From positions 1-28,894 of IMG/VR virus record IMGVR_UViG_3300044825_001934: a DNA stretch of 28,894 nt; one strand, given 5' to 3'. The notes under the pieces are model-generated. The model ran no database searches. It was not told the DNA's origin and worked only from the letters and a program-made list of their open reading frames with translations. Shown piece by piece: positions 3,336 through 28,894 of the stretch. Numbering within the stretch: position 1 is the first letter of the stretch; every line of letters begins with the position of its first letter. A program made the translations under genes and the position numbers. The stretch is from a virus.

Positions 3336-3346
3336 CCCGGTACTGT
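3336..3346 (+). promoter_or_regulatory. start-associated promoter motif before the portal gene
   Basis: CCCGGTACTGT with TACTGT at 3341-3346 lies 11 nt before the portal ATG at 3352. There is no Shine-Dalgarno sequence between box and ATG, so the message would be leaderless. Confidence 0.6.
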
Positions 3347-3351
3347 CCGAT

Positions 3352-4932
3352 ATGGGCATCTTTGCCAGTCTGGCGCGCGTGTTCTCGCGGCGACCCGTGG
3401 CGCCCGCGCTGGCCCCTCCCGCTTCGCGCGACGTGCGCGGACCGATGGTCCTTTCGCGTCAGGGCAGGCTGTGGGAATTGCCGGACCGCGACACGGCCAT
3501 GATGGAGGCCGAGCAAGGGCGTTTCCAGCGCGTGGCGGAGCTTCTCGACGCAATGCGCGGCGACGGATTGATCCGCGGCATCCTCGGCACGCGCTCCGCG
3601 GGCATGTTCTCGCTTCCCACCATCTTCGACGGCGACCCGTGGCTTGTCGACGTGCTCCGAGGGCGGCCGGCGAAGTACGACGAGCAGACCGGCGCTCGCA
3701 TCGAGCCGCGGCTGCCGGGCATGTGGGAGCGAATCTTGCCGCTCTCCGAGGCTACGGCCGTTGTGGAAGACGGCATTATGGCCGGCGTTGGCATCGGGTA
3801 CATGGAGGACGACCCGCTGCCGGGCGGCTGGCGGCGGCTGCGGCGGCTGGATCTTCACTGGCTGACGTATCGGCACCATGAGGACGGCTGGTACTACCAG
3901 GATGCTCGGCGCGGCGTCGTGAAGGTCACGCCCGGCGATGGACGATGGGCCCTGTTTACCCCGTACGGGCGTCACCGTCCGTGGGCGCGAGGCGCGTGGT
4001 ACCCCTGCGCTGGCCCGTTCATCTCGAAAGCTGGCGCGAGCGTCGACCGGATGCGGTGGCAGAAGTTTCTGGCCGACGGGCTGCGGTACATCGAGCAAGA
4101 GGAGGGCGCGTCCGAAGTTCATCTCCAGGCCATGGTTCAATTCATGCGGGACGGGTGGTCGTACGCCCCCGGCCTCGTGACTCCCAAGGGCTACAAGCCA
4201 GGGATCTTGGAGTCGAGCGGACGCGGCTATGAGGTGTACTCACAGACGGAGAGCCGCGCCGACATCGAGATCATGGTGGGGCTCGCCGGGCAGGTGACCA
4301 CCACGGAGGGCGGCAAAGGCTTTTCCTCGGGCGACATCTGGCGGGACATCGCTCTCAGCTTGATCCAGACGACGGCGACGGCTGCGAGCGAGTGGATCGG
4401 CGGCGACATTATCGACCCGTGGACGCAGGCGATCGGGCAACCCCGCGACGCTGTCCGCGCGACGTGGGATGTACGCGACCCGGCACAGCGAACGGCGGCG
4501 GCAGACGCGGCGACGTCGGCGGCCGGCGCAATCGAGGCCATCGATCGCGTGGCGGAGAAGCGCGGGCAGCGCGTGAACGCGACGAGCTTCTTCCGGGATC
4601 ACGGCGTCGCTGTGGAGCTTGAGGCGCTCAGCGGGGCACCGACCTCCCGAGCACTTCCCCCCGCTGGCACGACCCCGCTTCTTCTCGGCGACGGCTCGCC
4701 GACGCAAGAGCCTGTCCCCGGCGAAGCGGCCGTGTTGCTGGCGGCGAAGATGACAGAGCATGTCGTGGAGCGGTGTCCGCACGAGGCCGTCAACCGGTGT
4801 CGACTGTGCGGCGTGGAGCGGGTGCGGGACTTTGAGGTTGGCGCCGACGGAACGATCCGCTGGATCGTCGCGTGGCAGCCGATCGGCGGCGGACCGGCGG
4901 CGGGAGACGCTGCCGAGGGCGGTACGGTGTAG
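3352..4932 (+). CDS. Mu gp29-like (DUF935) portal protein
   Basis: 526 residues. It should form the dodecameric portal through which DNA enters the capsid, and it lies between terL and the prohead protease as expected. The family is visible in GVGIGYMEDD (about 145-154), the LDLHWLTYR strand, the GPFISKAG turn (221-228), the long MRWQKFLADGLRYIEQEEG helix and the ITTEGGKGFSSGDIWRDI-like stretch after residue 310. The ATG at 3352 is preferred over upstream in-frame starts, which would lie inside terL. It is also the one fitted by the promoter box. An oddity is a C-terminal cysteine cluster (C475, H477, C483, C486) resembling a small zinc knuckle. The last codons overlap the next promoter box. 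Confidence 0.85.
   Translation: MGIFASLARVFSRRPVAPALAPPASRDVRGPMVLSRQGRLWELPDRDTAMMEAEQGRFQRVAELLDAMRGDGLIRGILGTRSAGMFSLPTIFDGDPWLVDVLRGRPAKYDEQTGARIEPRLPGMWERILPLSEATAVVEDGIMAGVGIGYMEDDPLPGGWRRLRRLDLHWLTYRHHEDGWYYQDARRGVVKVTPGDGRWALFTPYGRHRPWARGAWYPCAGPFISKAGASVDRMRWQKFLADGLRYIEQEEGASEVHLQAMVQFMRDGWSYAPGLVTPKGYKPGILESSGRGYEVYSQTESRADIEIMVGLAGQVTTTEGGKGFSSGDIWRDIALSLIQTTATAASEWIGGDIIDPWTQAIGQPRDAVRATWDVRDPAQRTAAADAATSAAGAIEAIDRVAEKRGQRVNATSFFRDHGVAVELEALSGAPTSRALPPAGTTPLLLGDGSPTQEPVPGEAAVLLAAKMTEHVVERCPHEAVNRCRLCGVERVRDFEVGADGTIRWIVAWQPIGGGPAAGDAAEGGTV
4921..4928 (+). promoter_or_regulatory. start-associated promoter motif before the protease gene
   Basis: GGTACGGT with TACGGT at 4923-4928 lies 12 nt before ATG 4935 and overlaps the last codons of the portal gene. 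It is nearly identical to the copy before the gene at 18476, including the trailing GTAGACATG. Confidence 0.55.
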
Positions 4933-4934
4933 AC

Positions 4935-6011
4935 ATGGGCATCATCCCCCTGACGGCGGCCCCGGCGCCCCCGACGCGCTTTCGCATCTGGCACGCGGGC
5001 AACAACCCGGGCGACTACGGCGACAACGTCCTGACGGCCGCGGCGGCGGCGCGTGTTCTCGCGGAGTACCAGAAGCGCGGGCACGCGCTGGCGATCGACG
5101 TTCAGCACGCGACAAACCCGGAGTCCAACCCGGGGTATGACCCCGCGGATCCTCCCCCCATGGCCGGATACGCAGAGATCCGCGTGGTGCGCACGGCTGC
5201 CGGCGCGGAGGTGTGGGCGACTGACGTGCGCTGGTCCGACTGCGGCCGTCCCCATCCCGAAGCCGGTAAGGTGTGCTGTGGGAAGCACCAGATCGCTTCC
5301 GGGCAACGGCGGTACATCTCGCCGGACTGGAACCTCGATCCGGAGACGCGCGAACCCATTTCGATCAATCGGCTCTCGCTTGTGGCGGAGCCTGGTACGT
5401 ACGGAATCAACATGCTCGCGGCTCGCGCGGGCGCAGCATCGAGGTCATCTCCCATGAACGACACCGAGATTCTCAAGGCCCTTCTGGCGGCGGCGATGGG
5501 CGCTGCGTCCTCGCAGGACGCCGACATCCAGGCGTTCGGCGCGATCGTCTCTCAGCAGGCGGCGGATCTGGCGGCAGCCAAGGGGCTCTCCCTGGACGCG
5601 GCCCCGGCGTCGGACGCGACCCCCGTGGCGGCGGCCGATCCCAAGGTCCCCGCGGCCGATCCCAATGTCGCCGCGGCCCCCATGGCGGGCATCGAGGAGG
5701 CCGTCGCGGCGGCGGTCAAGAAGCTCGGGCTGACGGCCGGCGCGAAGGGCGTCACGTCGGCGGACGTGCGCGCAATCGTGGCCGAGGACGCCGAACGGCG
5801 CGCGCTCATCGAGGCCAACAAGGACAAGCTCGGCGCCGTGGCGCACCTGCTCGCGTCGAAGCCGCTGACGGAGGTCAAGGCGTTCGTGGCGGCCGTCGCG
5901 AGCAAGTCGACGAGCAAGGACGAGCCCGTGCGCGGCGCCCCGGTGGGCGGCGGCATCGAGTCCAGCAAGACCTACTCGCTCGCGGACCGGTTCGCGGCGA
6001 AGGGCAAGTGA
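4935..6011 (+). CDS. Mu I-like prohead protease with scaffold-like C-terminus
   Basis: 358 residues. The first 170 resemble the Mu protease I family, which matures the prohead: FRIWHAGNNPGDYGD near the start, ALAIDVQHAT (D55, H58) in the position of the catalytic His motif, RRYISPDWNLDP (about 126-136) and LSLVAEPGTYG (about 148-157). The remainder is Ala/Lys-rich and helical, without cysteines, as in capsid scaffolds. The ATG at 4935 fits the promoter box. Cysteines C103, C114 and C115 in the loop before the ISP motif are unusual and could bind metal. A second start inside the gene (5454) is described separately. The capsid gene follows after the decoration gene. Confidence 0.82.
   Translation: MGIIPLTAAPAPPTRFRIWHAGNNPGDYGDNVLTAAAAARVLAEYQKRGHALAIDVQHATNPESNPGYDPADPPPMAGYAEIRVVRTAAGAEVWATDVRWSDCGRPHPEAGKVCCGKHQIASGQRRYISPDWNLDPETREPISINRLSLVAEPGTYGINMLAARAGAASRSSPMNDTEILKALLAAAMGAASSQDADIQAFGAIVSQQAADLAAAKGLSLDAAPASDATPVAAADPKVPAADPNVAAAPMAGIEEAVAAAVKKLGLTAGAKGVTSADVRAIVAEDAERRALIEANKDKLGAVAHLLASKPLTEVKAFVAAVASKSTSKDEPVRGAPVGGGIESSKTYSLADRFAAKGK
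5454..6011 (+). CDS. nested in-frame scaffold protein (Mu Z-like arrangement)
   Basis: An in-frame ATG at 5454 (residue 174 of the protease) has a GAGG at 5441-5444, a spacing of 9 nt. It falls exactly where the protease domain ends and the helical Ala-rich part begins. It would yield a 185-residue scaffold alone. Mu makes its scaffold Z from an internal start inside gene I, so the arrangement has precedent. The separate product is inferred from the ribosome site and domain boundary only. Confidence 0.55.
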   Translation: MNDTEILKALLAAAMGAASSQDADIQAFGAIVSQQAADLAAAKGLSLDAAPASDATPVAAADPKVPAADPNVAAAPMAGIEEAVAAAVKKLGLTAGAKGVTSADVRAIVAEDAERRALIEANKDKLGAVAHLLASKPLTEVKAFVAAVASKSTSKDEPVRGAPVGGGIESSKTYSLADRFAAKGK

Positions 6012-7505: not shown

Positions 7506-7555
7506 AGACCCCGCGCACCTGTCCTCTCTCCGGGTGCGCGGGGTTTCGCCTTTCT
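7506..7555 (+). terminator. rho-independent terminator after the capsid gene
   Basis: CCCCGCGCACC (7509-7519) pairs perfectly with GGTGCGCGGGG (7533-7543). The stem is lengthened by A7508-T7544, encloses a 13-nt pyrimidine-rich loop and is followed by TTTCGCCTTT. This is the clearest terminator in the window. A new promoter motif begins within 15 nt. Confidence 0.88.
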
Positions 7556-7568
7556 GGCCCGGTAGGGT
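7555..7568 (+). promoter_or_regulatory. start-associated promoter motif before the connector gene
   Basis: TGGCCCGGTAGGGT, a full match to the consensus, with TAGGGT at 7563-7568 and the ATG 12 nt from the first T. It restarts transcription directly after the capsid terminator. Confidence 0.65.
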
Positions 7569-7574
7569 CAAGGC

Positions 7575-8264
7575 ATGTGGCAGACCCTTGCGACGCTTCG
7601 CGACCTTCACGAAGTAGGCGTCCCCACGGCGGCGCTGGCCAGCAAGACGGTCCCCGAGAAGCATCGGGCGCTGGCGAGGGCGTCGAGCATCTTCGCGGCC
7701 TACCTCCGGAAGAAGCACACGACACCGATGGCCCTCGTGGCTACCGACGCCGTCACGGTGTCGGTTGCTGGCGCGGCAGCGCTTGCGGGCACGCCGATCG
7801 GGGCGGCGGCGGACGTGCGCATCGAGGTGGTAGCAGGCGGCGCCGTCTCTGGCGGCTCCGTCACCGTGCGCGTCTCGCGGGACGACGGGACGGCCGGCAC
7901 ATGGGGCCAGACGCTGCCGGTTCTCGCGGACGGGCTTGTGTCCGTCGACGGCGTGCAGACGACGCTATCGGGCACGTGGACGGCGGGAGAGGCCGTCGCG
8001 TACACGGCCGGACCTGACCCCGGGATCCGGTGGGCGGTGGCGGCCATCGCGGCACACGCGCTGTACTACAACCGAGGGGCGGACCCGAAGGCGATGGAGC
8101 CGTACAAGGCCGCTTACGAGGCGGCGATCGGCTTCGGCAAGGCGCTCGCGGCGGGGCAAGAGGCGGAGCTTGACCAGCGCGCGGACGCGACCCCGCACCG
8201 TGCGGAAGGCGGACCCCTGTACGCGCAGCGCACGCGGGACGGCTTTCTGCGGGGCGAGGCGTGA
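7575..8264 (+). CDS. head-tail connector, gp36/DUF1320-like, with an inserted beta domain
   Basis: 229 residues in the first connector position after the capsid gene. The helical ends (WQTLATLRDLHEVGV to about residue 50, and WAVAAIAAHALYYNRG to about 195) look like the small adaptor proteins that sit under the portal. Between them, residues about 55-150 form Val/Gly/Thr-rich strands (VTVSVAGAA, DVRIEVVAGGAVSGGSVTVR) ending in AGEAVAYTAGPDPG. This reads as a beta-sandwich inserted into the adaptor. The module resembles, in pattern, the repeats in the sheath protein. The connector call rests mainly on gene order and helix pattern. Confidence 0.55.
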   Translation: MWQTLATLRDLHEVGVPTAALASKTVPEKHRALARASSIFAAYLRKKHTTPMALVATDAVTVSVAGAAALAGTPIGAAADVRIEVVAGGAVSGGSVTVRVSRDDGTAGTWGQTLPVLADGLVSVDGVQTTLSGTWTAGEAVAYTAGPDPGIRWAVAAIAAHALYYNRGADPKAMEPYKAAYEAAIGFGKALAAGQEAELDQRADATPHRAEGGPLYAQRTRDGFLRGEA

Positions 8265-9267: not shown

Positions 9268-9281
9268 TGGCCCGGTAAGGT
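9268..9281 (+). promoter_or_regulatory. start-associated promoter motif before the sheath gene
   Basis: TGGCCCGGTAAGGT, a full match, with TAAGGT at 9276-9281 and the ATG 11 nt from the first T. A 5-bp hairpin GGGCC-GAATCT-GGCCC (9258-9273) overlaps its left part. Confidence 0.65.
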
Positions 9282-9286
9282 GTGAC

Positions 9287-11107
9287 ATGTCTCTCACGCT
9301 TCCCTCTGCACAAGTCACCGTCCGCAAGGGCGGCCTGGGAGTCGCGACCGGCGGCCCCACGAACGTCCACGTCGCAATCGGCCCGTCGTCCAAGGGGCCG
9401 ATGAAGCAGCCGATCGCGTTCAATGTCTCGACGGACGCGGCCGGCACCTACGGGTGCGGCCCGATGCCGAAGGCGGCGGCGTACGCGACGCGACGCAGGG
9501 CGGCGCGCTACGTCGCGATCCGCATCCCCGCTGTCGTTGAGACGGCGTCGGTGTCCGCGATCACGAAGCCGACCGGGAAGACCGCCACCACCACCGGAAC
9601 CCCCAACTGGGGATACGACGTCGTCTTCGTGTTCTCGACGGGCGGCACCATCGGGACCATCGGCGCGTTCTGGAAAGTGTCGCTGGACGGCGGCGTGACG
9701 TTCTCGACCCCGGCGGCGCTCGGAACGGCAACGAGCGTTCTTCTCCCCGGCACCGGGGTAACCGTGGTGCTGACCGCGTCCGAGGTGTGGGCCACGAACG
9801 ACGAGATCCGCTTCTACACGCGGCCCGCGTCTCAGGCCATCTCTCCGGTCACCACGACGCGCGTTGGCACGAGCACGTCGGCGGTCACCATGACCGGCAC
9901 GCCCGAGGACGAATACGAGATCGTCTTCCGCATCCTGAACGGCGGCACCATCGGGATCACCGGCATCACCTACGACTACTCCCTGGACGGCGGCGACACG
10001 TTCACCACGCCCGCGCAACTCGGCACGGCAACGAGCGTGGCCCTGCTCGACGGCGCAGAGGCCAGCGGCGTCACCGTCAATCTTGCGGCGGGCACGCTCG
10101 ACACGCTGGACACGGCGCGGGCCAAGTCGACCGGCCCCGCGTGGCAGGCGTCCGATGCGTTGGAGGCACTGGACGCGCTTCGGGCGTCCTCGCACACGTG
10201 GCGCTTCATTCATCTGGCCGGCGACACGACTCCGGCAAAGGCGTCGTCCGTGGGCGGCAAGATGACGGCGTTCGAAGGGCTGGGCGTGTTCACGTATGCT
10301 CTCATGAGCGCGCGCGACCGCATCGATGGCGAGGTGGACGCGCTCGGTATGCCGTCGGTGGCATGGGCGGAGCGGCTCATCGCGGACTACCAGAGCTTCG
10401 CTTCGGACCGTTCGTCCGTCAGTGCCGGGCGTGCTCGCGTCACCTGCCCGATCACCGGGCGATCGAACCGCCGTCCGGCGTCGTGGGTCGCGTGCGCTCG
10501 GCTCATCGAGAACACGATCCAGGTGGACCCCGGCCGCAAGCTCGACGGCCCTCTGTCCGAGGACGTCCGGATCTTCGACTCCACGGGGCGGCTCGCGGAG
10601 CTGAACAGCAACATTCGCTCGGCGCTGCACTCGGCGCGCTTCCTGACCCTCCGGACGTACGACCGCGAGGCCGGCACGTACATCACGCGCGGCAATTCGA
10701 TGGCGGCGGCTGGCTCCGAGTTCAACCGGATCGCGATGCGCGCCGTGATGGATCTCGCGTCCGAGGTCTACCAGGCGGTCATGCTCCAGCAGATCGAGAA
10801 CAACCTGCTGGCCAACCCCCTGACCGGCGCACAGCCGGGCGTGACGTCGGGCGAGAGCATCGTCCCCGGCGCGCTGGCGGAGGCGGACGCGCGGATCATC
10901 GATCGCGAGCTTCTCACTGCGCTCCGCGCCGTTCTCGTGGCCAACGGCTACGTCAGCGCGGTTCGGGCGCAGGTGAGTCGAACGGATCCGTTCCTGACCA
11001 CCGGCATCCTGACGGCCAAGGTGTCCTTGACCCCGCTCGGATACGTCGACGAGTTCAAGGGCGACATCTTCTTCGAAAGCCCGCGGCTCGCGGCGCTCAT
11101 TGCGTGA
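9287..11107 (+). CDS. contractile tail sheath protein with duplicated beta insert
   Basis: 606 residues, the size and position of a myovirus sheath, followed immediately by the tube gene. The N-terminus (LPSAQVTVRKGGLGVATGGP) and the C-terminal part (TAKVSLTPLGYVDEFKGDI, near 580-600) are typical of sheaths, whose C-terminal domain interlocks with the tube. Two similar segments, residues about 103-162 and 203-266, share TGTP, GGTIG, SLDGG.TF.TPA.LGTATSV and GVTV.L. They lie 100 residues apart and are an internal duplication of a surface domain. The motif box lies 11 nt before ATG 9287 and there is no ribosome site. Contraction drives the tube through the envelope. Confidence 0.8.
   Translation: MSLTLPSAQVTVRKGGLGVATGGPTNVHVAIGPSSKGPMKQPIAFNVSTDAAGTYGCGPMPKAAAYATRRRAARYVAIRIPAVVETASVSAITKPTGKTATTTGTPNWGYDVVFVFSTGGTIGTIGAFWKVSLDGGVTFSTPAALGTATSVLLPGTGVTVVLTASEVWATNDEIRFYTRPASQAISPVTTTRVGTSTSAVTMTGTPEDEYEIVFRILNGGTIGITGITYDYSLDGGDTFTTPAQLGTATSVALLDGAEASGVTVNLAAGTLDTLDTARAKSTGPAWQASDALEALDALRASSHTWRFIHLAGDTTPAKASSVGGKMTAFEGLGVFTYALMSARDRIDGEVDALGMPSVAWAERLIADYQSFASDRSSVSAGRARVTCPITGRSNRRPASWVACARLIENTIQVDPGRKLDGPLSEDVRIFDSTGRLAELNSNIRSALHSARFLTLRTYDREAGTYITRGNSMAAAGSEFNRIAMRAVMDLASEVYQAVMLQQIENNLLANPLTGAQPGVTSGESIVPGALAEADARIIDRELLTALRAVLVANGYVSAVRAQVSRTDPFLTTGILTAKVSLTPLGYVDEFKGDIFFESPRLAALIA
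9593..10084 (+). repeat. internal duplication within the sheath gene
   Basis: Copy one covers about 9593-9772 and copy two about 9893-10084, a 300-nt offset. DNA similarity is strongest around CTGGACGGCGGCG and GGCACGGCAACGAGCGT, but codon changes are many, so the duplication is old. The protein repeats are given under the sheath gene. Confidence 0.7.
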
Positions 11108-11657: not shown

Positions 11658-11671
11658 TGGCCCGGTATGGT
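11658..11671 (+). promoter_or_regulatory. start-associated promoter motif before the tail chaperone gene
   Basis: TGGCCCGGTATGGT, a full match with TATGGT at 11666-11671. Here the ATG lies 23 nt from the first T, leaving a short leader of about 11 nt that contains a G-run ribosome site. It is the exception to the leaderless spacing. Confidence 0.6.
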
Positions 11672-15871: not shown

Positions 15872-15880
15872 TCACCTTGG

Positions 15881-15891
15881 GTCGGTAGAGT
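15881..15891 (+). promoter_or_regulatory. start-associated promoter motif before the gp46-like gene
   Basis: GTCGGTAGAGT with TAGAGT at 15886-15891, 11 nt from GTG 15897. The left part (TTGGGTCGGTA) departs from TGGCCC but matches the copy before the gene at 18476. Confidence 0.5.
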
Positions 15892-15896
15892 AAAAC

Positions 15897-16286
15897 GTGG
15901 AGTACGGCGAGACAATCAACATCGACTCTCCCCTGTTCCGGCGGCTCATCGGCGACGAGGCCGTGTTGGCGCAAGCGCTCGTGATGCGCCTCGATACGCG
16001 GCGCGGCACCTACTGGGACGATCCGGATTACGGTCTCATGGTGGACGACCTGACGAACGCGGGGCTTACGTCCGATGCCGTGGTTTCCATCGCGGGCGCG
16101 ATCAAGGCCGAATGCGAGAAGGAAGAGCGCGTGTCGTCCGTCGCTGTGACTCCCACGGTGGAGCAGACCGAAGGCGGCCTGTCCATTCGCCCCTCGATCC
16201 GCGTGTTTCCCGCCAGCGGGCGGCCGTTCGACTTCGTCGGACCGCTGGTCAACTTCGCTGGCGGCGCTCTCCGAAAGGACGTGTAA
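15897..16286 (+). CDS. baseplate wedge protein, gp46/gp25-like
   Basis: 129 residues, GTG start 15897 placed 11 nt after the first T of its promoter box. The family pattern is clear: an N-terminal part ending QALVMRLDTRRGTYWDDPDYG, with the aromatic/Asp/Tyr-Gly turn of gp25-like lysozyme-fold proteins, then LMVDDLTNAGLTSD, and a C-terminal strand GRPFDFVGPLVNFAGG. It forms the baseplate wedge with the next protein. It stops one base before the GTG of the gp47 gene. Confidence 0.8.
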   Translation: MEYGETINIDSPLFRRLIGDEAVLAQALVMRLDTRRGTYWDDPDYGLMVDDLTNAGLTSDAVVSIAGAIKAECEKEERVSSVAVTPTVEQTEGGLSIRPSIRVFPASGRPFDFVGPLVNFAGGALRKDV

Positions 16287-17523: not shown

Positions 17524-18473
17524 TCACGGACAGTGTGCTTAGGGGGCTGCTCTCGGGATGGATGCTCCGCGTTGAGCGCGAGCATTGGGGAAAGCTCATG
17601 CGCGCCACGCTTCGCGTCGTCCATGACACCGTGGACAACGTGCGACTAGGGCGGCTCGCGGCGATGCCGGGGCAGGTGCTCGGGGATGACAGTTTCCCCC
17701 ATGTCGAGGCGCTCAACCTCATCGGGCGCGATCGGAAACTCCGCCGCGGGAAGCTGGAAACCGACGTCGCTTACGCGGCGCGCTGCCGCGACTGGCTCAC
17801 GGCCAAGAGGCGCGCGGGCACGTATGCTGGGCTGCTGTACGCGCTACGCGCCGTTTTGCAGCCGTCCCCGCCGCGCGTGCGACTTGTTCGCGGAGGATCG
17901 GCGGACGACGTCGGATACTGGTGGACCCTGGACGATGACGCGCTCCGCTACCAAGAGACCGACCCCTTGGGGGCGCATCACGGCGTCGTCTGGCCAGAGG
18001 CCGGCGATCCTGTCTACGCGGACAGCACAGACGCGGCGGCGTGGAACTGGGACTGGTCCTACTACACCGGCCCTCCGGAGCCGATCCCCGACCCGTCTCG
18101 GGTGTGGGTCATCATCTACGGCCCGTGCAACAGCCCTGAACTGGACGCATTCGAGGGCATTTACGCGGACGGTCTCTCCGTGTTTGGCGAGGCGGACGGC
18201 GACGGAGACAAGTACACGATCGGGACGACTGCCACGGCGTCGTACGTGGAGATCGTCCGCGCCGTGTGCGCCGACTTCAAGGCGGCCGGGTGTACCATCC
18301 CGTGGATTATCACGGTCATGGACGAGACGTCTTTTGTGATTCCTGATTCGACGGACCCGGAGAACCCTGACGGGTGGTGGAAGTACCACGGGAAGATCGT
18401 CAACGACGCCGGAACGCTGCGGCGAGTCCGCGCAAGGTCGACCCTTGGCCGGTACTGGGTCGGTACGGTGTAG
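17520..18473 (+). CDS. baseplate protein at the gp48/gpI position
   Basis: 317 residues, ATG 17520 overlapping the gp47 stop (ATGA). In the N-terminal 110 residues, ALNLIGRDRKLRRGKLETD and AYAARCRDWLTAKRRAGTYAG match the Mu gp48/P2 gpI pattern in which Arg-rich stretches precede a helix. The middle has a Trp-rich part (AAWNWDWSYYTGPPEP) and the last 120 residues a compact domain with VWVIIYGP and AGCTIPWIITVMDET. This longer C-terminus would attach fibres. The promoter motif of the next gene overlaps the end. Confidence 0.72.
   Translation: MITDSVLRGLLSGWMLRVEREHWGKLMRATLRVVHDTVDNVRLGRLAAMPGQVLGDDSFPHVEALNLIGRDRKLRRGKLETDVAYAARCRDWLTAKRRAGTYAGLLYALRAVLQPSPPRVRLVRGGSADDVGYWWTLDDDALRYQETDPLGAHHGVVWPEAGDPVYADSTDAAAWNWDWSYYTGPPEPIPDPSRVWVIIYGPCNSPELDAFEGIYADGLSVFGEADGDGDKYTIGTTATASYVEIVRAVCADFKAAGCTIPWIITVMDETSFVIPDSTDPENPDGWWKYHGKIVNDAGTLRRVRARSTLGRYWVGTV
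18459..18469 (+). promoter_or_regulatory. start-associated promoter motif before the fibre gene
   Basis: GTCGGTACGGT with TACGGT at 18464-18469, 12 nt from ATG 18476. A partial second copy (CCGGTACTGGG) lies 12 nt further left. Confidence 0.6.
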
Positions 18474-18475
18474 AC

Positions 18476-19324
18476 ATGTCGGCGAACTACAACGGTCAAG
18501 ACCCGTTCACCGCAAACGCGTACATCGCCGGTAAAGGGTACTGGCTGACGGTGTATTTGGCCACGGACGAAGACGACCGGGACGCGGCGTCTGTCAGCGT
18601 CGGATTGGAGGGCGTCACCGACCGTACCAACTGGCTTGCGTGGCGCATGGTCAACGGGCTGGAGGGCGGCACCTACGGTGCGGTCATCACCTGGAACGGC
18701 GCGCAGACGTTCAACAACATCGCCACGTTCGGGAATGACATCCTGGTCAACGGGCAAGGGCGCTTCGCCAACTGGCCCAAGCTCGAAGGCTCGAAGGTCG
18801 TGAAGCGCCGCGCGTGGCGGATCGCGAATGGCACGTACGACGCAGACGGCGCAAACAGCGGCGCTCCGCTGCGGTACCACGGCTGGCTCGACAACGGCGA
18901 CACGAACCCCGTTCCGTGCATCAAAACGACCGCGATCACGTCCGGGAGTAACGTCACCCTCGTGGAGCTTTTGGAGCTTCCGGGCGAAGGCAGGTTGGAC
19001 AGTGTGAAGGTCACTTGCCGCGGCCTCACGCCTGCCAACAACGCGGTCCCCGCGATCGTGGCTTACCCCACGTTCGAGATCGTGGAATGGTCCGGCACTA
19101 GCGCGATCGCCGTGGCAACCCCGGCCGTCGCGTCGGGGCACAGCATGACGGACTGGCAGAGCGTGCGCGAGGTCACGTTGACCCCCACGTCGACGCTGAC
19201 GATCAACAAAAACAAGCACTATGGCGTGAGAATCTCTCACCCCGTCGGCGGCGTCGGGCAAGCGGCATCGATGCGCGTGTTCGACTTCGAAAGCACCATC
19301 ACCCTGTTCACCATCCCGCAGTGA
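18476..19324 (+). CDS. probable tail fibre or baseplate appendage
   Basis: 282 residues, ATG 18476 fitted by its promoter box; upstream in-frame codons lie inside the previous gene. It follows the gp48-like baseplate gene, the normal place for fibres. The sequence is beta-rich with many Asn, Thr and Gly (NGAQTFNNIATFGNDILVNG, TEWSGTSAIAV-like strands) and ends in a short strand DFESTITLFTIP. It has no collagen repeat and no enzyme motif that I recognise. It may be the base of the receptor-binding structure. The role is inferred from position and composition. Confidence 0.5.
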   Translation: MSANYNGQDPFTANAYIAGKGYWLTVYLATDEDDRDAASVSVGLEGVTDRTNWLAWRMVNGLEGGTYGAVITWNGAQTFNNIATFGNDILVNGQGRFANWPKLEGSKVVKRRAWRIANGTYDADGANSGAPLRYHGWLDNGDTNPVPCIKTTAITSGSNVTLVELLELPGEGRLDSVKVTCRGLTPANNAVPAIVAYPTFEIVEWSGTSAIAVATPAVASGHSMTDWQSVREVTLTPTSTLTINKNKHYGVRISHPVGGVGQAASMRVFDFESTITLFTIPQ

Positions 19325-21727: not shown

Positions 21728-21741
21728 TGGCCCGGTACCGT
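21728..21741 (+). promoter_or_regulatory. start-associated promoter motif before the HTH gene
   Basis: TGGCCCGGTACCGT, a full match, with TACCGT at 21736-21741 and the ATG 12 nt from the first T. It puts a regulator into the same class as the virion genes. Confidence 0.65.
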
Positions 21742-21747
21742 CCACGC

Positions 21748-21954
21748 ATGACCCCCACCATCTCCGCGCACGACGTTCGGCGCATCGCCGTCGCTGCGAT
21801 GACTGACCCACGGACGATCCAGCGCTACCTCAAAGGCGAGCCGATCCGCTCGACATCCAAGGCCCGCATCGAGGCGTCACTGGCGGCCCTTGGGTTCCCC
21901 GCGGCGGCCCCGTCACCGGCCCCGCGCCCCGAGGGGGCGGCCGGCGATACCTAG
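21748..21954 (+). CDS. small HTH DNA-binding regulator
   Basis: 68 residues from ATG 21748. An upstream in-frame start would lie in the non-coding region and is not supported. The first 50 residues read as a LacI/Cro-like DNA-binding head: DVRRIAVAAMTDPRTIQRYLKG with the turn at MTDPRT, then STSKARIEASLAALGF. A Pro-rich tail follows and no ligand domain. The dyads upstream and its place at the start of the regulatory block make it a candidate switch or early repressor. Too short for certainty. Confidence 0.62.
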   Translation: MTPTISAHDVRRIAVAAMTDPRTIQRYLKGEPIRSTSKARIEASLAALGFPAAAPSPAPRPEGAAGDT

Positions 21955-22184: not shown

Positions 22185-22400
22185 ATGGATACCCCTGACC
22201 CTGTCCACACCAAGCGGTTCGTCTCCTTCCGGCTGCCGGTCTCCGAAGTCGAGGCCATCGAGGCGTTCGGGCGCGACGTCGCGCGCCGTACCCCCGGCCT
22301 CAAAGTGGACCGCACCGCAGCTCTGCGAATTCTGGTTCTGTCCGCGCTGGCGCGGCGCGACGAGCTTGTCGGCAACCTCCCCATGGGAGACGCGCAATGA
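22185..22400 (+). CDS. ribbon-helix-helix-like regulator
   Basis: 71 residues. ATG 22185 is chosen for its AAGAGGA 6 nt upstream; ATG 22161 in frame lacks one. RFVSFRLPVSEVEAIEAFG gives the short N-terminal strand (SFRLP) and first helix of the RHH/CopG fold, and KVDRTAALRILVLSAL the second helix with the usual hydrophobic pattern. RHH dimers bind operators through the strand. The gene overlaps the next, sigma-region-4 gene by 4 bases (ATGA), so both are made together. Confidence 0.65.
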   Translation: MDTPDPVHTKRFVSFRLPVSEVEAIEAFGRDVARRTPGLKVDRTAALRILVLSALARRDELVGNLPMGDAQ

Positions 22401-22834
22401 TCCCCGTCGAAGTGCTCCGCGTCATGTGGGCGGCGACGGGCTCGCTCTACGCGTCGAACATGGAGCGATCCATGGAGGACGACATCCGCGAGGCCATCGA
22501 ACGCACCGACGGCCCTTTCCGGCCGGACGTTGGCACGCTTACCCCCGATGCGATGCCCGCTGCGGCGGACCCGGGCGACCGGCTGGTGCCGGGCGGCGCG
22601 ACCTTGCAAGAGATCGCGAACGAAATGGGGATCTCCCGCGAGCGGGTGCGGCAGATCCAGGCGCGAGCCATGCGCAAGATGCGCCGGCAGTTTGTGATCA
22701 TGTTCGGGCGACCGTTCCCGGAGAAGACGACGGCGGAGCGGCTGGTGGACGCGACCCGGCCGGCGACGTACAGGCGTCCCTCTGCCAGCGTCACGCCCGT
22801 CGAATATGGCTTTCTGCCTATGGCGGCGGAGTGA
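22397..22834 (+). CDS. sigma region-4-only protein (phage sigma factor subunit candidate)
   Basis: 145 residues, ATG 22397 overlapping the previous stop. Residues 68-96 (ATLQEIANEMGIS then RERVRQIQARAMRKMRRQ) are a near-textbook sigma70 region 4.2 helix-turn-helix, the part that reads -35 boxes and binds the polymerase beta flap. No region 2 or 3 is present. The N-terminal 60 residues are acidic and unlike sigma regions. The C-terminal 35 are basic. It could be half of a split sigma factor, with the region-2 protein encoded at 26914. It could also be an activator or a plain DNA-binding protein built on the same fold. Confidence 0.78.
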   Translation: MIPVEVLRVMWAATGSLYASNMERSMEDDIREAIERTDGPFRPDVGTLTPDAMPAAADPGDRLVPGGATLQEIANEMGISRERVRQIQARAMRKMRRQFVIMFGRPFPEKTTAERLVDATRPATYRRPSASVTPVEYGFLPMAAE

Positions 22835-22836
22835 AC

Positions 22837-23847
22837 ATGGACGGCGACGACGCAAAGCATGGCTACGCGGTCCTCGTGGACCGTCGGCTTCGGAACACGG
22901 AGGCGCACGTGATGCCCACGGAGGAACGTCTCGTGCTCCGCACGCTCGCCGGTCACGCGGACGAGGCAGGAAGGTGCTTCCCCTCGATCCCCACGCTGGC
23001 GGGCGAGTGCGGCATGTCGGAAGAGAGGACCCGCAAGGCGCTCCGGGCGTTGGAAGCCAAGGGCTGGTGCTACGTCAGCAACGCGAACCGCTTCAAGGCG
23101 GACGGCGGGCGTACCAGCGACGAACGGACCCTGACCCCGGAGAAGGGGCAATGGTGGGCGAAGGACGAGCGGTCCAAGCTCCGTGGCTTCCTGTCCCCGG
23201 ACCGACCCCCCCCTAGTCTCGCCGGGCACCCCCTAGTCTCGCCGGGCGATACCACCCCCGTTACGCCGGGCACGACTACCCCCGTCACGCCGGGCGTGAC
23301 CACCCTAGTCTCGCCGGGCGATACAGGAAGCTCCCATGGAAGCTCCCATGGAAGCACCCATGGAAGCGCCCATGAGGGGACCGCTTCGCGGCCCCTCCCC
23401 CCGGTGGGGACGACGGCTTCTCTGTTCGATGCTCCGGAGGTCAAGCCAGAGAGGGCGGCGCCCAAGAGGCGCATCCCCGACGGCTGGACGCCGAAGCGTC
23501 AGCACGAGGCGCTGGCCCTCAGCCTGGCGCTGCCCACCGGGCACGTGCAGACCGCGGCGGAGAAGTTCAAGGGGCACTTCGTCGCGAACGGCAAGACGTT
23601 CGCCAACTGGGATCAGGCGTTCGCCAACTGGCTTCGCACCGACTCGGACCGGTTCAAGGCGGGCGGCCCCGGCGTCCGCGGAGCGTCCCCCGGCGGCACG
23701 CGGCGGCCGGTGAACAACCGGCAGGATACGGGCTGGGCCACGATCGTCCCCGACGACGCGGCCGACGACGCGATCGAGAACATGATCCGCGGCGAGGGCG
23801 GCATCATTCAGCAGCGCGGCAGCGTCCCCGGATCGCTCGGGTACTAG
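22837..23847 (+). CDS. replication initiator with winged-helix N-terminus and internal iterons
   Basis: 336 residues, ATG 22837 two bases after the previous stop. Residues about 25-85 (PTEERLVLRTLAGHADEAG, FPSIPTLAGECGMSEERTR, KALRALEAKGWCYV) form the winged-helix domain of phage replication proteins. A linker of repeats follows: V-S/T-P-G-x-T-T-P units at about 130-163 and four G-S-x-H units to about 178. The last part (WTPKRQHEALAL, AEKFKGHFVANGKTFANWDQ, AFANWLR, about 214-270) resembles the DnaT/initiator C-terminal domain that contacts the helicase loader. The repeated DNA inside the linker is likely the origin, as in lambda O. Confidence 0.75.
   Translation: MDGDDAKHGYAVLVDRRLRNTEAHVMPTEERLVLRTLAGHADEAGRCFPSIPTLAGECGMSEERTRKALRALEAKGWCYVSNANRFKADGGRTSDERTLTPEKGQWWAKDERSKLRGFLSPDRPPPSLAGHPLVSPGDTTPVTPGTTTPVTPGVTTLVSPGDTGSSHGSSHGSTHGSAHEGTASRPLPPVGTTASLFDAPEVKPERAAPKRRIPDGWTPKRQHEALALSLALPTGHVQTAAEKFKGHFVANGKTFANWDQAFANWLRTDSDRFKAGGPGVRGASPGGTRRPVNNRQDTGWATIVPDDAADDAIENMIRGEGGIIQQRGSVPGSLGY
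23212..23319 (+). repeat. five iteron-like direct repeats (candidate origin)
   Basis: Core CCTAGTCTCGCCGGGC occurs exactly at 23212-23227, 23232-23247 and 23304-23319. Diverged copies at 23256-23271 and 23280-23295 keep the last seven bases GCCGGGC and the leading CC. Starts are 20, 24, 24 and 24 bp apart, close to two helical turns, so bound proteins would line up. The repeats are also coding (V-S-P-G units). Confidence 0.75.
23326..23373 (+). repeat. four tandem 12-bp repeats beside the iterons
   Basis: GGAAGCTCCCAT twice, then GGAAGCACCCAT and GGAAGCGCCCAT, with no gaps. They encode Gly-Ser-Ser/Thr/Ala-His units. They may be part of the origin or a slippage tract. Confidence 0.8.
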
Positions 23848-23855
23848 ACCATCAC

Positions 23856-23867
23856 CATCACGAGAGA
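23856..23867 (+). repeat. repeated leader element CATCACGAGAGA (copy 1)
   Basis: Lies 8 nt before ATG 23875. A near-identical CACCACGAGAGA occurs at 25539-25550 and 27421-27432, each ending 8-11 nt before a start codon, and a variant within codons at 27454-27467. The GAGAGA part can act as the ribosome site. Confidence 0.6.
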
Positions 23868-23874
23868 GAACACC

Positions 23875-25515
23875 ATGGACAGCAACATCACGAACAGCGG
23901 CGACACGGACAACGGCGCGGCCCTCGCGTGCAGCTTCTGCAAGCGGACGCAGGACGAGACGACGCGCATGGCAACCGGCGGCGGAGCGGTTATCTGCGAC
24001 ACGTGCGCGGCGGCGCTGCCGGTCTACACGCCGCGCAAGATGGACCCGTGCTCGTTCTGCAACGGCAATCACCGGGCGTGCAAGGCGTTCGTCGACGGCG
24101 TGTGCATCTGCGACGAGTGCCTGGACGTGGCGGCGGAGGCTACCGGCGTCGAGCGCAAGGCCCCGGCCCCGGCCCCGGACCTGACGGCGACATTCGCACG
24201 TGCCGCGGCTGCGAGTCTCGCGCTGAAGCGGCCCGCTCCCGCGGCCCCGCGCGAGTGCTCGGACAGCGGCGCATGCGAATGCGACACCTGCAAGCGGCTC
24301 CACGCGCTGTGGACAGCGTGCAACTCGCTCCGTACGAGAGCTGAATTTACGAAGCGTCGGCCCGAGGGGGGCGGTCATGGTTTTGACGGTGGCCCGTGGA
24401 ACGCGCGGATTTCCCCGCTGACGACGCGACGCGCCATGCTGGCGGCGGCGGCGGCGGCAGTCGCGCAGCAACACGGCGAGACGCTCAACATCGGCACCGT
24501 CACCGACGAACAAATCGTCCAATGGGAGATCGTTGCAAAGCGGGATGCGGAGGCCGCGGCGCAGAAGGCGCGCGAGGAAGAGCCCTTGAATGAGAGCAAG
24601 AAGCGGCGCCGCGCAGCGTCGCGGGCGTTCGCAGGTGTCATCCCCGGCGCGTACGCGAGCGTGGCCCCCGTAGAGGCCGGCGAAACCGAGGACGAGCGCA
24701 AGGTCAACGCGGCGGCGCTCTTCTCCCCGGACGAGTTCGGGCGCGTCCGCGTGAAGGACAAGGCCGCATATAGGGCGGCCATGGACGCGGCCGTCGACAT
24801 CGCCAACGGCAAGGTGCGCACGGTCCTGCTCGCTGGCCCGTCGGGCTCCGGCAAGACGCACCTCGCGGCCCTCATGCTGCGCCGCATCGCCCTGGAATGG
24901 GAGCGCAACGCGGCCCGCGGGGCGGTTCCCGAGTTCAACCCCGATGCACCTCAGCGGCGGCCGCTCGACGGCGACCCCGACGGCGACCCCGTCTTCCTGC
25001 GTCTCGCGGCGGACCCGGGGTACGGTTACCGCGACCCCGGCGCGACCATCCCCGGCGCGACGTGGCAGAAGTCCCGCGACATGTTCCGCGCGTCGGTGGC
25101 GCCGAGGGCGTTCCCGAAGGACGGGCAGGAGGTGGCCGACCCCCTGGACGCGGCCAAGCGCACGGCCGTCGCTGTGCTGGAGGACATCGGCCCCGAGCCA
25201 TCGCAGGCGAACGTGGCTCCGATGGCAGACGTTGTCTGGGAGCGGTACGACGGCGCGGGGCTCGTGACGATCGCCACCACCGGGTTCTGCGACCCCGAGG
25301 CGGCCCCGGCCCCGCGCGACGCGGACGACATGCGCCGGTTCTTGGCGCGGCTGGCGGCGCGGTACGATGACGCCTTTGTCCGGAGGCTTTCGGAGCCGGG
25401 CGTTTCCGTCGTGATCCCCGTCGGGTGCAAGCTCGCGAAGGGTGCCGCACGGACGGCCCCGCAGTCGCCCGGAAACGGGGCAAGGCGCGGCCCGAACGCG
25501 TCGCACGTCTCCTAG
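23875..25515 (+). CDS. tandem ClpX-type zinc fingers fused to a DnaC/IstB-like AAA+ ATPase
   Basis: 546 residues. C19-x2-C22 and C41-x2-C44 (CSFCKRTQDETTRM to ICDTC) match the ClpX C4 zinc-binding domain, and C59-x2-C62 with C79-x2-C82 is a second copy. A third cysteine group follows (C128, C134, C136, C139). Residues 160-310 are a linker. The C-terminal part is a P-loop ATPase: GPSGSGKTHLA at 321-331, Walker B-like AVLEDIGPEP at 434-442, a sensor strand LVTIATTGF and FVRRLSEPG near 501-509. Helicase loaders (DnaC) have this type of ATPase. Next to the initiator, helicase loading is the likely role. ClpX zinc domains bind partner proteins such as lambda O, so the fusion could dock to the initiator. 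Confidence 0.78.
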   Translation: MDSNITNSGDTDNGAALACSFCKRTQDETTRMATGGGAVICDTCAAALPVYTPRKMDPCSFCNGNHRACKAFVDGVCICDECLDVAAEATGVERKAPAPAPDLTATFARAAAASLALKRPAPAAPRECSDSGACECDTCKRLHALWTACNSLRTRAEFTKRRPEGGGHGFDGGPWNARISPLTTRRAMLAAAAAAVAQQHGETLNIGTVTDEQIVQWEIVAKRDAEAAAQKAREEEPLNESKKRRRAASRAFAGVIPGAYASVAPVEAGETEDERKVNAAALFSPDEFGRVRVKDKAAYRAAMDAAVDIANGKVRTVLLAGPSGSGKTHLAALMLRRIALEWERNAARGAVPEFNPDAPQRRPLDGDPDGDPVFLRLAADPGYGYRDPGATIPGATWQKSRDMFRASVAPRAFPKDGQEVADPLDAAKRTAVAVLEDIGPEPSQANVAPMADVVWERYDGAGLVTIATTGFCDPEAAPAPRDADDMRRFLARLAARYDDAFVRRLSEPGVSVVIPVGCKLAKGAARTAPQSPGNGARRGPNASHVS

Positions 25516-25538
25516 GCCGTCCAGACCCTGCAACCCCG

Positions 25539-25550
25539 CACCACGAGAGA
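25539..25550 (+). repeat. repeated leader element CACCACGAGAGA (copy 2)
   Basis: Followed by GAGAAGCACC and ATG 25561. The 30 nt before it begin TAGGCCGTCCAG, similar to the TAGCGCGTCCAT before copy 3, so whole leaders, not just ribosome sites, are shared. Confidence 0.6.
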
Positions 25551-25560
25551 GAGAAGCACC

Positions 25561-26205
25561 ATGAACACGACCAGCAAGAACACCCTGGAAGACATCGGGC
25601 ACAAGGTCAGGACGGCGCTCCGCGGCGCGTGTCTGGCGCGGACGCTCCCCTTCGACGCGAGAACCATGGCCGGCGCGTGTGGCCCCGCTACGGCGGCGCT
25701 GCTGACGGCGCTGGCCATGGCAGGCATCCCGTCGACGTGGGCCCACGGCAGGATGCTGCGCCCCGAGCCTGTGGACCCGCACACCTGGGTCATGGTCGGA
25801 GACTACTTCGTCGACCTGACGGCGACGCAGGCAGCGACGTGCGGCGAAGCTGTGCGAATCGTCGGCGCATCGTCGCGGTGCTACCGGCGCACCGTGAACG
25901 GCGGCCCGAGCTTCGGCCCGTGCCTGGACGTGGAACCGGACATCGTGGCCGACGTGACGTCCCCGTGGGCCCACGAGGCGGCGCTTGTGGCAGTCGTGGC
26001 CGAAGCGATGGGCGCTCCCCGCGAGGACGTCGAGCCGCACGCGCTGGCGGTACTGTGGGGCAACGAGTCCCGCCGCCGCGCTCTCATGACCCCACGGAGC
26101 ATTCTCGCGGAGGTGGCAGCGCTTCCCGGCCTGACAGCCGACGACGCTCGGGCACTGGCCGAGCACGCGCGAGCGCTCATCGCGGCACGCGCAAAAAGCG
26201 CGTAA
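25561..26205 (+). CDS. papain/transglutaminase-fold cysteine peptidase-like protein
   Basis: 214 residues, ATG 25561 with GAGAGAGAAG upstream. A Cys-His-Asp triad can be seen: C40 in MAGACGPATAALL at the start of a helix, H74 in DPHTWVMVG and D85 in YFVDLTATQ, the spacing and local pattern of the transglutaminase-like fold. The C-terminal 100 residues are helical, with a basic end. Substrate is unknown: it could be a peptidase, deamidase or transferase. In this early-gene block a host-takeover or anti-defence role is possible, but that is a guess. No signal peptide, so it should act in the cytoplasm. Confidence 0.6.
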   Translation: MNTTSKNTLEDIGHKVRTALRGACLARTLPFDARTMAGACGPATAALLTALAMAGIPSTWAHGRMLRPEPVDPHTWVMVGDYFVDLTATQAATCGEAVRIVGASSRCYRRTVNGGPSFGPCLDVEPDIVADVTSPWAHEAALVAVVAEAMGAPREDVEPHALAVLWGNESRRRALMTPRSILAEVAALPGLTADDARALAEHARALIAARAKSA

Positions 26206-26213
26206 AAACGCGC
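26192..26213 (-). terminator. hairpin with T run for leftward transcription
   Basis: GCGCGT (26198-26203) and ACGCGC (26208-26213) pair around AAAA. On the minus strand the stem is followed by TTTTT (complement of 26193-26197), the form of a short rho-independent terminator. It overlaps the stop codon of the peptidase-like gene. Confidence 0.4.
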
Positions 26214-26217
26214 CGCC

Positions 26218-26268
26218 AGCATCTTGCGTACAGGAATCGCCCATGGACAGCAGCAAGATGCTTGCATC
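26218..26268. promoter_or_regulatory. inverted pair of GCAAGATGCT operator-like sites
   Basis: AGCATCTTGC (26218-26227) and GCAAGATGCT (26253-26262) are perfect reverse complements separated by 25 nt. The second extends to GCAAGATGCTTGCATC, which shares 14 of 16 bases with 21693-21708. The second site overlaps the -35 of the HNH promoter, fitting repression. Confidence 0.5.
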
Positions 26269-26290
26269 ATGGACGGTTCCGTGTTACTCA
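26262..26290 (+). promoter_or_regulatory. promoter candidate before the HNH gene
   Basis: TTGCAT (26262-26267), 17-nt spacer, TACTCA (26285-26290), and the ATG lies 12 nt from the first T of the -10. This would also give a leaderless start but with a -35 box. The operator-like site overlaps it. Confidence 0.5.
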
Positions 26291-26296
26291 TCTGGC

Positions 26297-26914
26297 ATGC
26301 CCCATCCCGTCCACGCCGAAGCGGCCCCGGGCAATGCTCGGATCGAGCCGATCCCCTTCGCCCCTGGCTACCACGTCAGCACCGACGGGCGCGTTTTCTG
26401 CGCCCGTGGGGCGTCCATGGTGGAGCTGGCCCAGAACGCGCACAAGGACACGCGCTACCCCCGGGTCAGGCTCACGGTGGGCGGCCGCGGCCGGAACGTG
26501 CGCGTGCATCGGATCATGGCGGCCGTCTTCATGGGCGAGCCGCCGTCTCCCCGGCATGAGGTGCGGCACCTCAACGACACGAAGACCGACAACCGGCTCG
26601 ATAATCTGGCGTGGGGCACCCCCTCCGAAAACCTGCGCGACGCGTTCCGGAACGGGCGGCGCGACCCGGGAAAGAGCCGCTCGGGCATGAGCGAGCCGCT
26701 TGTCAGGGCGCTCCGCCTCGTGGCGTCAACAGGCATGAGCCTCCGGCGGACGGCGCGGCTCTGTGGCGTCCCGGAAAGCACCACGCACGACGTCGTCAAG
26801 GGGCGCACGTGGGGGCACGTGGGGCCGTTCACGGCGTCGCAACTGGCAGCGGCGGCGAAAGCCCGCGCCGCCGTTCACCCTCGGCAGATCCCCCTGTTCC
26901 GCGAGGCGGCGTGA
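26297..26914 (+). CDS. HNH endonuclease with NUMOD4-like start and HTH tail
   Basis: 205 residues from ATG 26297, favoured over ATG 26243 because the latter lies before the operator and promoter. After PIPFAPGYHVSTDGRVFCAR (NUMOD4-like) comes RVHRIMAAVF, then EVRHLNDTKTDNRLDNLAWG with the His-Asn-His core (RHLND and DNRLDNLAWGT), then SENLRDAFRNG. This is the usual homing-type HNH. The last 70 residues have an HTH pattern (SLRRTARLCGVPESTTHDVV). It would nick or cut DNA, perhaps for spread of its own gene or to aid packaging. It overlaps the sigma region-2 gene (TGATG). Confidence 0.82.
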   Translation: MPHPVHAEAAPGNARIEPIPFAPGYHVSTDGRVFCARGASMVELAQNAHKDTRYPRVRLTVGGRGRNVRVHRIMAAVFMGEPPSPRHEVRHLNDTKTDNRLDNLAWGTPSENLRDAFRNGRRDPGKSRSGMSEPLVRALRLVASTGMSLRRTARLCGVPESTTHDVVKGRTWGHVGPFTASQLAAAAKARAAVHPRQIPLFREAA

Positions 26915-27411
26915 TGGTTACCGGCGTCGACATCACGAAGCAGTGGAAGGACATCGAGCGTCTCGCTCGGGCCTACTACCGCTCGGCGCAGACGCAAGAG
27001 TACCTCCGAGCGCGGGCAAAGGCGGGGCACGCCGGGCGGCGCATCGAGGCCGACGACTTCGTCCAAGAGGTGGCGCTGGCGATCCACCGGAAGAACGGGA
27101 CGGCCGGCGCGTTCGACCCCTCCCGCGGCAAGCTCGGCACGTACGTCTGGCGCGTGTGCTTCTCCGTCGCGTCGCATGGCACGGAGCGACGCGAACCCGA
27201 AGCACTGCTCAGTGACCCGGCAGACATGGGTAAAATGGCACGATCCGTCGACGGTATTGCGACTGCGCGGCGCGTCACACTGGAAAGCAACAATGCGGTC
27301 CTGGCGTCCCTCGCACGCTCTCGCGCCGCTGACAGGCGCGCGGGACAGCTTGCCCTGTTCTCCCCCGAGCAAGAGTGTCCGTTCTTGGAAGACGTCACCG
27401 ACGCGGCCTAG
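26914..27411 (+). CDS. sigma region-2-only protein (phage sigma factor subunit candidate)
   Basis: 165 residues from ATG 26914, one base overlap with the HNH stop (GTG 26911 also possible). The first 95 residues match sigma70 region 2: a helix DIERLARAYYRSAQTQEYL (2.1), EADDFVQEVALAIHRK (2.2, about 45-60, the part that grips the beta' clamp helices), FDPSRGKLGTYVWR (2.3, about 67-80) and VCFSVASHGTERR (2.4, -10 reading). No region 4 follows; the C-terminal 70 residues are unrelated and end acidic. A region-4 protein is encoded 4 kb upstream. Together they could make a two-subunit sigma factor, as SigO-RsoA does in Bacillus. Confidence 0.72.
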   Translation: MVTGVDITKQWKDIERLARAYYRSAQTQEYLRARAKAGHAGRRIEADDFVQEVALAIHRKNGTAGAFDPSRGKLGTYVWRVCFSVASHGTERREPEALLSDPADMGKMARSVDGIATARRVTLESNNAVLASLARSRAADRRAGQLALFSPEQECPFLEDVTDAA

Positions 27412-28174: not shown

Positions 28175-28678
28175 ATGTTCGAGAAGATTCTTCTAGCGTT
28201 GCTGGTCTACGGCTCACAGTGCGCGTCCCCGCCGGATGTCGACGGCGGCGGCGAGACGAGCGGCACCACGGGCGGGACGACCGCTTCGGAGCAGACCACC
28301 ACGACGACGGACCCAGAGACCACCGACGGCGGCGCGGTCGGCGAGGCAGGGCAGGGCGGCGAGGCCGGTCAAGGTGGGGCAGGCGGCGGCATGGGCGGCA
28401 TGGGCGGCAGCGTCACGACGGGGCTTTCCCCGCTCGGCGGGCACTGCGTCGACACGGCCGACTGCGACGGCGGCCTGGAATGTTTCGAGTGGCACGAGAA
28501 CGGGCAGGGGGCGATCGGTATCTGCTCCGTGGAATGCACCAGTAACAGCGTGTGCGCCCCCGGGCTCTGCCTGTACACCGTCGACGGCGGGCACTGCGTC
28601 CCCCCTTGCTTCAACACGGCCGACTGCCCGTCCCCCCTCGTCTGCGATGCGGCCATCGGCGCGTGCGTCGCGTTCTAG
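28175..28678 (+). CDS. secreted Cys-rich (lipo)protein, moron candidate
   Basis: 167 residues from ATG 28175, with GGAGG 9 nt upstream; GTG 28151 in frame is an alternative. MFEKILLALLVYGSQC is a short signal peptide ending in a Cys, possibly a lipid anchor although Ser-Gln before the Cys is not a good lipobox. A low-complexity Gly/Thr/Glu linker follows (about 20-80). The C-terminal 85 residues have 12 cysteines in patterns such as GGHC-DTADC, SNSVCAPGLC and PPCFNTADC, fitting six disulphides. Such domains are common in secreted proteins of myxobacteria and their relatives. It is unlike the rest of the phage. It could alter the lysogen or host surface. Confidence 0.65.
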   Translation: MFEKILLALLVYGSQCASPPDVDGGGETSGTTGGTTASEQTTTTTDPETTDGGAVGEAGQGGEAGQGGAGGGMGGMGGSVTTGLSPLGGHCVDTADCDGGLECFEWHENGQGAIGICSVECTSNSVCAPGLCLYTVDGGHCVPPCFNTADCPSPLVCDAAIGACVAF

Positions 28679-28828: not shown

Positions 28829-28839
28829 GCCGGTACCGT
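28829..28839 (+). promoter_or_regulatory. start-associated promoter motif before the endolysin
   Basis: TGCCGGTACCGT with TACCGT at 28834-28839, 11 nt from GTG 28845. It puts the lysis enzyme into the same class as the virion genes. Confidence 0.6.
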
Positions 28840-28844
28840 CAGGC

Positions 28845-28894
28845 GTGACACCCCCCGACGGAATCATCGGCATTGACGTCTCAGAGCACCAAGA
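28845..28894 (+). CDS. GH25 endolysin, first 16 codons, cut by the window edge
   Basis: GTG 28845 opens VTPPDGIIGIDVSEHQ. GIDVSEHQ is the first strand of the GH25 barrel and carries the first active-site Asp. The start is fixed by the promoter box 11 nt upstream. It is the missing N-terminus of the type of gene cut at the left edge of the window. Confidence 0.8.
   Translation, partial: MTPPDGIIGIDVSEHQ

Follow-up and report, generated by a model that had tools for sequence, protein, structure and literature searches.

The viral record IMGVR_UViG_3300044825_001934, all 28,894 bases of which were analysed here as the window, is a small phage genome with a GC content of 68.5%. It encodes two separate sigma-factor-like proteins on the + strand. 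P0001 (22397–22834, 145 amino acids) is a stand-alone sigma region 4.2-like helix-turn-helix (HTH) protein, and P0002 (26914–27411, 165 amino acids) resembles sigma region 2 only. For both frames, GC content at third codon positions and codon use are coding-like, indicating that both are real genes. The same window holds a set of some ten promoter-like motifs, almost identical to one another, placed directly upstream of start codons, mostly those of lysis and virion genes. Together these features suggest that the phage reprogrammes host transcription by a cut-down sigma factor. The host is likely a member of the Myxococcota (myxobacterial), because relatives of the phage terminase occur in four Myxococcota genomes at about 31–42% identity (33–42% in one comparison and 31–41% by tblastn in another).

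The HTH of P0001 occupies residues 67–96 and matches Pfam Sigma70_r4 at 46.1 bits, passing the cut-off of 24.1, but the match covers profile positions 20–49 of 50 only. Residues 67–98 also match PHROG 351, a sigma factor family, at 1.7e-8. Region 4.1, which carries the beta-flap contacts of region 4, fell below detection in the Pfam profile search, as did any further sigma region. Outside the HTH, the predicted model of P0001 is of low quality. It can be overlaid by several sigma region 4 structures at Z 2.0–3.5, with a low-confidence helix (residues 19–36) partly covering region 4.1, so that on modelling grounds P0001 may retain a remnant of region 4.1. In tblastn searches of annotated phages, matches to P0001 extended little past the 30-residue HTH. 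These results bear out the preliminary description of this DNA, made from the sequence alone, which had reported a clear region 4.2 and no other sigma region in P0001. The start of the P0001 gene overlaps the gene upstream by ATGA.

P0002 is related to sigma region 2 across residues of about 2–92, while its C-terminus has no structural assignment. Its Pfam Sigma70_r2 score is 20.4 bits (E 4.6e-4), short of the curated threshold of 24. A profile built from five full Myxococcota ECF sigmas gives 38.6 bits, where the best of 200 shuffles reached 7.2; the profile-profile match is limited to residues 39–92. Because these five sigmas were selected by their match to P0002, the ECF test is biased upward; the Pfam score is free of this bias. 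By both measures the similarity of P0002 to sigma region 2 exceeds chance. Identity to region 2 of full Myxococcota ECF sigmas is about 33–38%. The Myxococcota ECF (group IV) sigmas that were examined whole share this region 2 and keep region 4, whereas P0002 stops where region 4 would begin, and no region 4 was found within it. A tblastn search of annotated phages with P0002 gave no match.

Structure prediction suggests the same, with a region-2 fold over residues 2–91. Single-sequence AlphaFold2 gave predicted local distance difference test values of about 73–86 for residues 11–60, 59 for residues 61–70 and 75–78 for residues 71–90. The best structural matches of the model are sigma region 2 chains, aligned over residues 1–93. 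The match to 2o7g has a modest Z of 5.7, which for a helical bundle is short of what is called safe and is suggestive only, and Foldseek alone returned no significant match. Thus, there is a fair case, built on profile similarity and a predicted fold, that P0002 carries a real region 2 without region 4, though with weaker support than the preliminary description implied. Its account of P0002 as regions 2.1–2.4 without region 4 agrees with the ECF profile, the predicted fold and the missing region 4, and its assignment of regions 2.1–2.4 is tempered by the sub-threshold Pfam score. The broader observation, that sigma region 2 and region 4.2 lie in separate proteins, is partly confirmed by Pfam, the ECF profile and the predicted fold.

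The motif core GGTANNGT, followed after 5 or 6 nucleotides by RTG, occurs ten times on the + strand and never on the − strand of the window. The expected number is 0.20, the maximum among shuffles was 2, and permuted cores occur 0–1 times. Nine genes carry the motif 5–6 nucleotides upstream of their start codon, the remaining match being the intragenic one at 5265. The extended form of the motif is TGG-N2/3-CGGTANNGT; aligned sites share T at −8, G at −6, CGG preceding TA, and a hexamer that ends in GT. No −35 element is conserved at these sites: columns −18 to −48 never exceed the null, and matches to a −35 are no better than at random positions. The sites are presumed promoters, and transcripts starting from them would be leaderless because, at this spacing, transcription is expected to begin at the start codon. 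Shine-Dalgarno pairing was set aside as an explanation of the motif, since several instances pair little and the spacing matches that of a −10 hexamer.

Lysis or virion genes follow nine of the ten placed sites. The full motif is found as TGGCCCGGTAGGGT-N6-ATG (7555–7577) at the start of gene 7575–8264, a head-tail adaptor by gene order; as TGGCCCGGTAAGGT-N5-ATG (9268–9289) at the tail sheath gene 9287–11107; as TGGGTCGGTAGAGT-N5-GTG (15878–15899) at gene 15897–16286, gp25-like by gene order; and as TGGGTCGGTACGGT-N6-ATG (18456–18478) at gene 18476–19324. The sites at 7555–7575 and 9268–9287 named in the preliminary description are therefore real, being two members of a larger set. Shorter forms stand at the small-terminase-like gene 786–1607 (GGTATGGT-N5-GTG, 773–788), at gene 3352–4932, a portal by gene order (GGTACTGT-N5-ATG, 3339–3354), at the head maturation protease gene 4935–6011 (GGTACGGT-N6-ATG, 4921–4937), and at the GH25 endolysin gene, whose C-terminal part lies at 5–469 (GGTACCGT-N5-GTG, 28832–28847). 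One further copy, TGGCCCGGTATGGT (11658–11671, core at 11664), lies 17 nucleotides upstream of the ATG at 11689 and would not give a leaderless transcript. The tenth placed site, with its core at 21734, belongs to a full motif, TGGCCCGGTACCGT-N6-ATG (21728–21750), at the start of a small HTH gene (21748–21954), the first of the presumed early block. The match at 5265–5280 lies inside the protease gene, off any gene start, and is probably due to chance. All of these sites are on the + strand.

The core of the motif has a counterpart in bacteria. Across 800 kb of G320, a Myxococcota genome, TANNNT shows an enrichment of about tenfold 6–9 nucleotides upstream of the ATG of long open reading frames (ORFs). 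G occupies both positions preceding TA at about 55%, no −35 is visible, and examples of GGTANNGT are found at the starts of plausible leaderless genes. This enrichment, seen over loci L170–L209, suggests widespread leaderless transcription in one Myxococcota lineage. Because of it, TANNNT beside ATG is to be regarded as a leaderless signal of the host type in one Myxococcota genome at least. In Deinococcus, TANNNT adjoining an ORF suffices for transcription (PMC12340547), and the leaderless promoters of Deinococcus-Thermus resemble the phage sites in having a −10-like hexamer a few bases upstream of the start codon and no need of a −35 (PMC12340547). Unlike those promoters, the phage motif adds a conserved upstream TGG-N2/3-C and a terminal GT, additions that as a set are known here from this phage only.

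The phage sites also depart from the host signal. GGTANNGT is kept more strictly in the phage (6/8) than among the TANNNT-N5/6-ATG sites of G320 (6/48; p 6e-4), and a spacing of 5, rare in G320, is retained in the phage. The TGG-extended motif occurs five times in the 28.9 kb of the phage, compared with 0–2 times per genome across 284 Myxococcota genomes, where it is not enriched and its counts do not exceed those of a reversed control. The TGG extension is thus phage-specific.

Relatives of the phage offer little guidance. We sampled 35 phage records that share the tail sheath, many of which are fragments. Over family cut-offs, one carries region 2 alone (G032) and two carry a region 4.2-like domain alone (G012 and G034). 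The preliminary description had proposed a search for phages in which both proteins occur together, and none of the 35 carries both. The motif is likewise absent, with at most one core site per strand in the loci fetched by sheath similarity. Since no relative with the motif was found, the case that would have counted against the preliminary description, a related phage keeping the motif but only one of the two proteins, is neither borne out nor contradicted. The single occurrence of either domain in these phages is weak evidence because they lack the motif and many of the records are fragmentary. In G032, a 28 kb sheath-bearing record, the region-2-only protein (L210:5049–5545, IMG/VR 3300021976_000061; Sigma70_r2 41 bits) is encoded between portal-like and protease-like genes. 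It belongs to a different subgroup and is not alignable to P0002. The stand-alone region 4.2-like proteins of sheath-bearing phages without region 2 have 171 (L213:9555–10070) and 154 (L212:4523–4987) amino acids.

Wider searches gave similar results. IMG/VR contigs yielded no close relatives of P0001, P0002, the large terminase (1604–3331), the DnaC-like protein or the replication initiator, and an ECF-guided search found no close relative of P0002. The strict motif CTGGCCCGGTANNGT-N5/6-ATG was found in 17 stretches among all viral contigs, none with a set of sites. Four terminase-related Myxococcota contigs have almost nothing else in common with the phage, and carry neither sigma-like protein and no set of motif sites.

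We tentatively favor, at somewhat short of even odds, the interpretation that P0002 works like T4 gp55, as a pared-down phage sigma, and that P0001 is an accessory or independent regulator. Region 2 of P0002 would bind the clamp helices of beta' in the host core polymerase, then melt and read phage promoters that consist of the enlarged −10 element only. Transcripts would begin at or beside the start codons of lysis, head and tail genes. P0001, from the same presumed early block, would be a region 4.2-like DNA-binding protein that either assists at the motif promoters or regulates something else. Core binding and motif recognition by P0002, and any contact between the two proteins, are inferred; the order of early and late blocks is likewise presumed. 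This reading is favored because a factor limited to region 2 would need a promoter made up of the −10 alone.

By analogy, the best-fitting phage precedent is T4 gp55 with gp33, which the preliminary description did not name. gp55 is a late-promoter factor whose sigma similarity lies in domain 2 only, gp33 occupies the beta flap, and the two have been termed 'a split sigma' in a review (PMC2988020). P0002 shares with gp55 a sigma similarity confined to region 2, and the presumed phage promoters share with T4 late promoters a −10 element and no −35. There are also differences: by sequence search P0002 is nearer to the ECF-type region 2 of Myxococcota than to gp55, the phage promoter motif is GC-rich and adjoins the start codon, and P0001 has a sigma-like HTH whereas gp33 has none. 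At E 0.1 P0002 matched no PHROG family, and no solved structure of the gp55 family was matched; the lack of T4 gp55 among its structural matches excludes nothing.

Several observations weigh against a gp55-like P0002. Its Sigma70_r2 score lies under the Pfam cut-off. One motif precedes an early gene, that of the HTH protein at 21748, and the contrast between late and early genes is not significant (9/27 versus 1/12 genes, p 0.13). No sliding clamp or gp33-like flap-binding co-activator was seen among the part of the proteins that was scanned. In the collections searched, no close phage relative was found in which linkage of motif and proteins could be followed, and a word-enrichment scan of G032 showed no comparable motif. 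Lastly, the core being a host-type leaderless signal, host polymerase might need no help in reading the phage promoters. This last point leads to the main rival, a serious contender that we consider less probable than the gp55-like reading: host RNA polymerase with its main sigma reads strong leaderless −10 promoters, which the TGG extension only strengthens, and P0001 and P0002 act elsewhere, for example with P0002 inhibiting or appropriating host polymerase. The tenfold enrichment of TANNNT without a visible −35 in G320, the leaderless G320 genes with GGTANNGT and the sufficiency of TANNNT beside an ORF in Deinococcus (PMC12340547) all speak for it. Set against these are the full motif, unenriched in every sampled Myxococcota genome, the far stricter GGTANNGT of the phage, and its retained spacing of 5.

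The remaining explanations give P0001 a larger part. In Bacillus subtilis, SigO–RsoA (YvrI–YvrHa) divides region 4-like and region 2-like sequences between two proteins (PMC8103513; PMC10028694) and can work as an AND gate (PMC10028694). P0001 and P0002 could similarly be obligate subunits of one sigma, with firing dependent on both. The presence of complementary domains within one small, apparently near-complete genome fits this proposal, and SigO–RsoA proves an AND-gate split workable (PMC10028694). We nevertheless consider it unlikely. A gp55-like factor fits better because the SigO–RsoA model has region 4 reading a −35 element, which the motif promoters do not offer. SigO–RsoA is bacterial, whereas P0001 and P0002 are phage-encoded from genes 4 kb apart. 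By sequence P0001 has only region 4.2, region 4.1 being undetected and its structural overlay of low confidence, and proteins with region 2 and region 4.2 are present singly in the sheath-sharing phages. Less probable still is a phage sigma split between the two proteins, region 2 of P0002 reading TANNGT and the HTH of P0001 reading the adjacent TGGNCC in place of a −35, so that host polymerase would be redirected to some ten late promoters, most of them leaderless. It is just as improbable that P0001 alone is the late regulator, a stand-alone HTH protein as in other late activators of phages, its HTH binding TGGNCC beside the −10, with P0002 a decaying or repurposed ECF remnant. The weak region 2 score of P0002 and the two phages with stand-alone region 4.2-like proteins would suit such a role for P0001, but those phages lack the motif, and P0002 has an intact frame and a normal coding signal, keeps the conserved core of region 2 and is predicted to fold coherently.

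The rest of the window is that of a contractile-tailed, Mu-like phage, with protease, major head protein, sheath, tape measure and baseplate genes. Its tail sheath is ~30% identical to those of Myxococcus phage Mx4 and of Thermus/Meiothermus phages. Positions 5–469 encode the C-terminal part, and 28845–28894 the N-terminal part, of seemingly one GH25-type endolysin. The joined frame is open but appears ~60 residues short, roughly 180 bases are probably missing at the junction, and the record ends show no terminal overlap. Because the end fragments resemble two parts of one endolysin, the record probably represents an almost complete genome that was cut within that gene.

Additional genes were noted in the window. 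The small HTH protein (21748–21954) is 49% identical over 47 amino acids to an ORF of a Myxococcota contig (G273:C76) that sits ~4 kb from a related terminase gene. Positions 23875–25515 encode a putative helicase loader in which a DnaC-like P-loop ATPase is fused to a C4 zinc finger of the ClpX type; a search of phage collections turned up no relative. A transglutaminase-like protein is encoded in the early block at 25561–26205, with PF13471 barely over its cut-off. The protein at 28175–28678 is cysteine-rich and lipoprotein-like with a Gly/Thr-rich stretch, a style common among myxobacteria.

If P0002 does drive the motif promoters, it would be a region-2-only sigma outside the T4 family, and the gp55 solution, in which region 4 and the −35 element are dropped, would have arisen more than once. 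That solution would then work in a genome of 29 kb that has no obvious clamp. For GC-rich bacteria, the phage would also supply a set of orthogonal promoters that are compact and leaderless, and it would allow a direct test of the minimal portion of sigma that is enough for promoter recognition.

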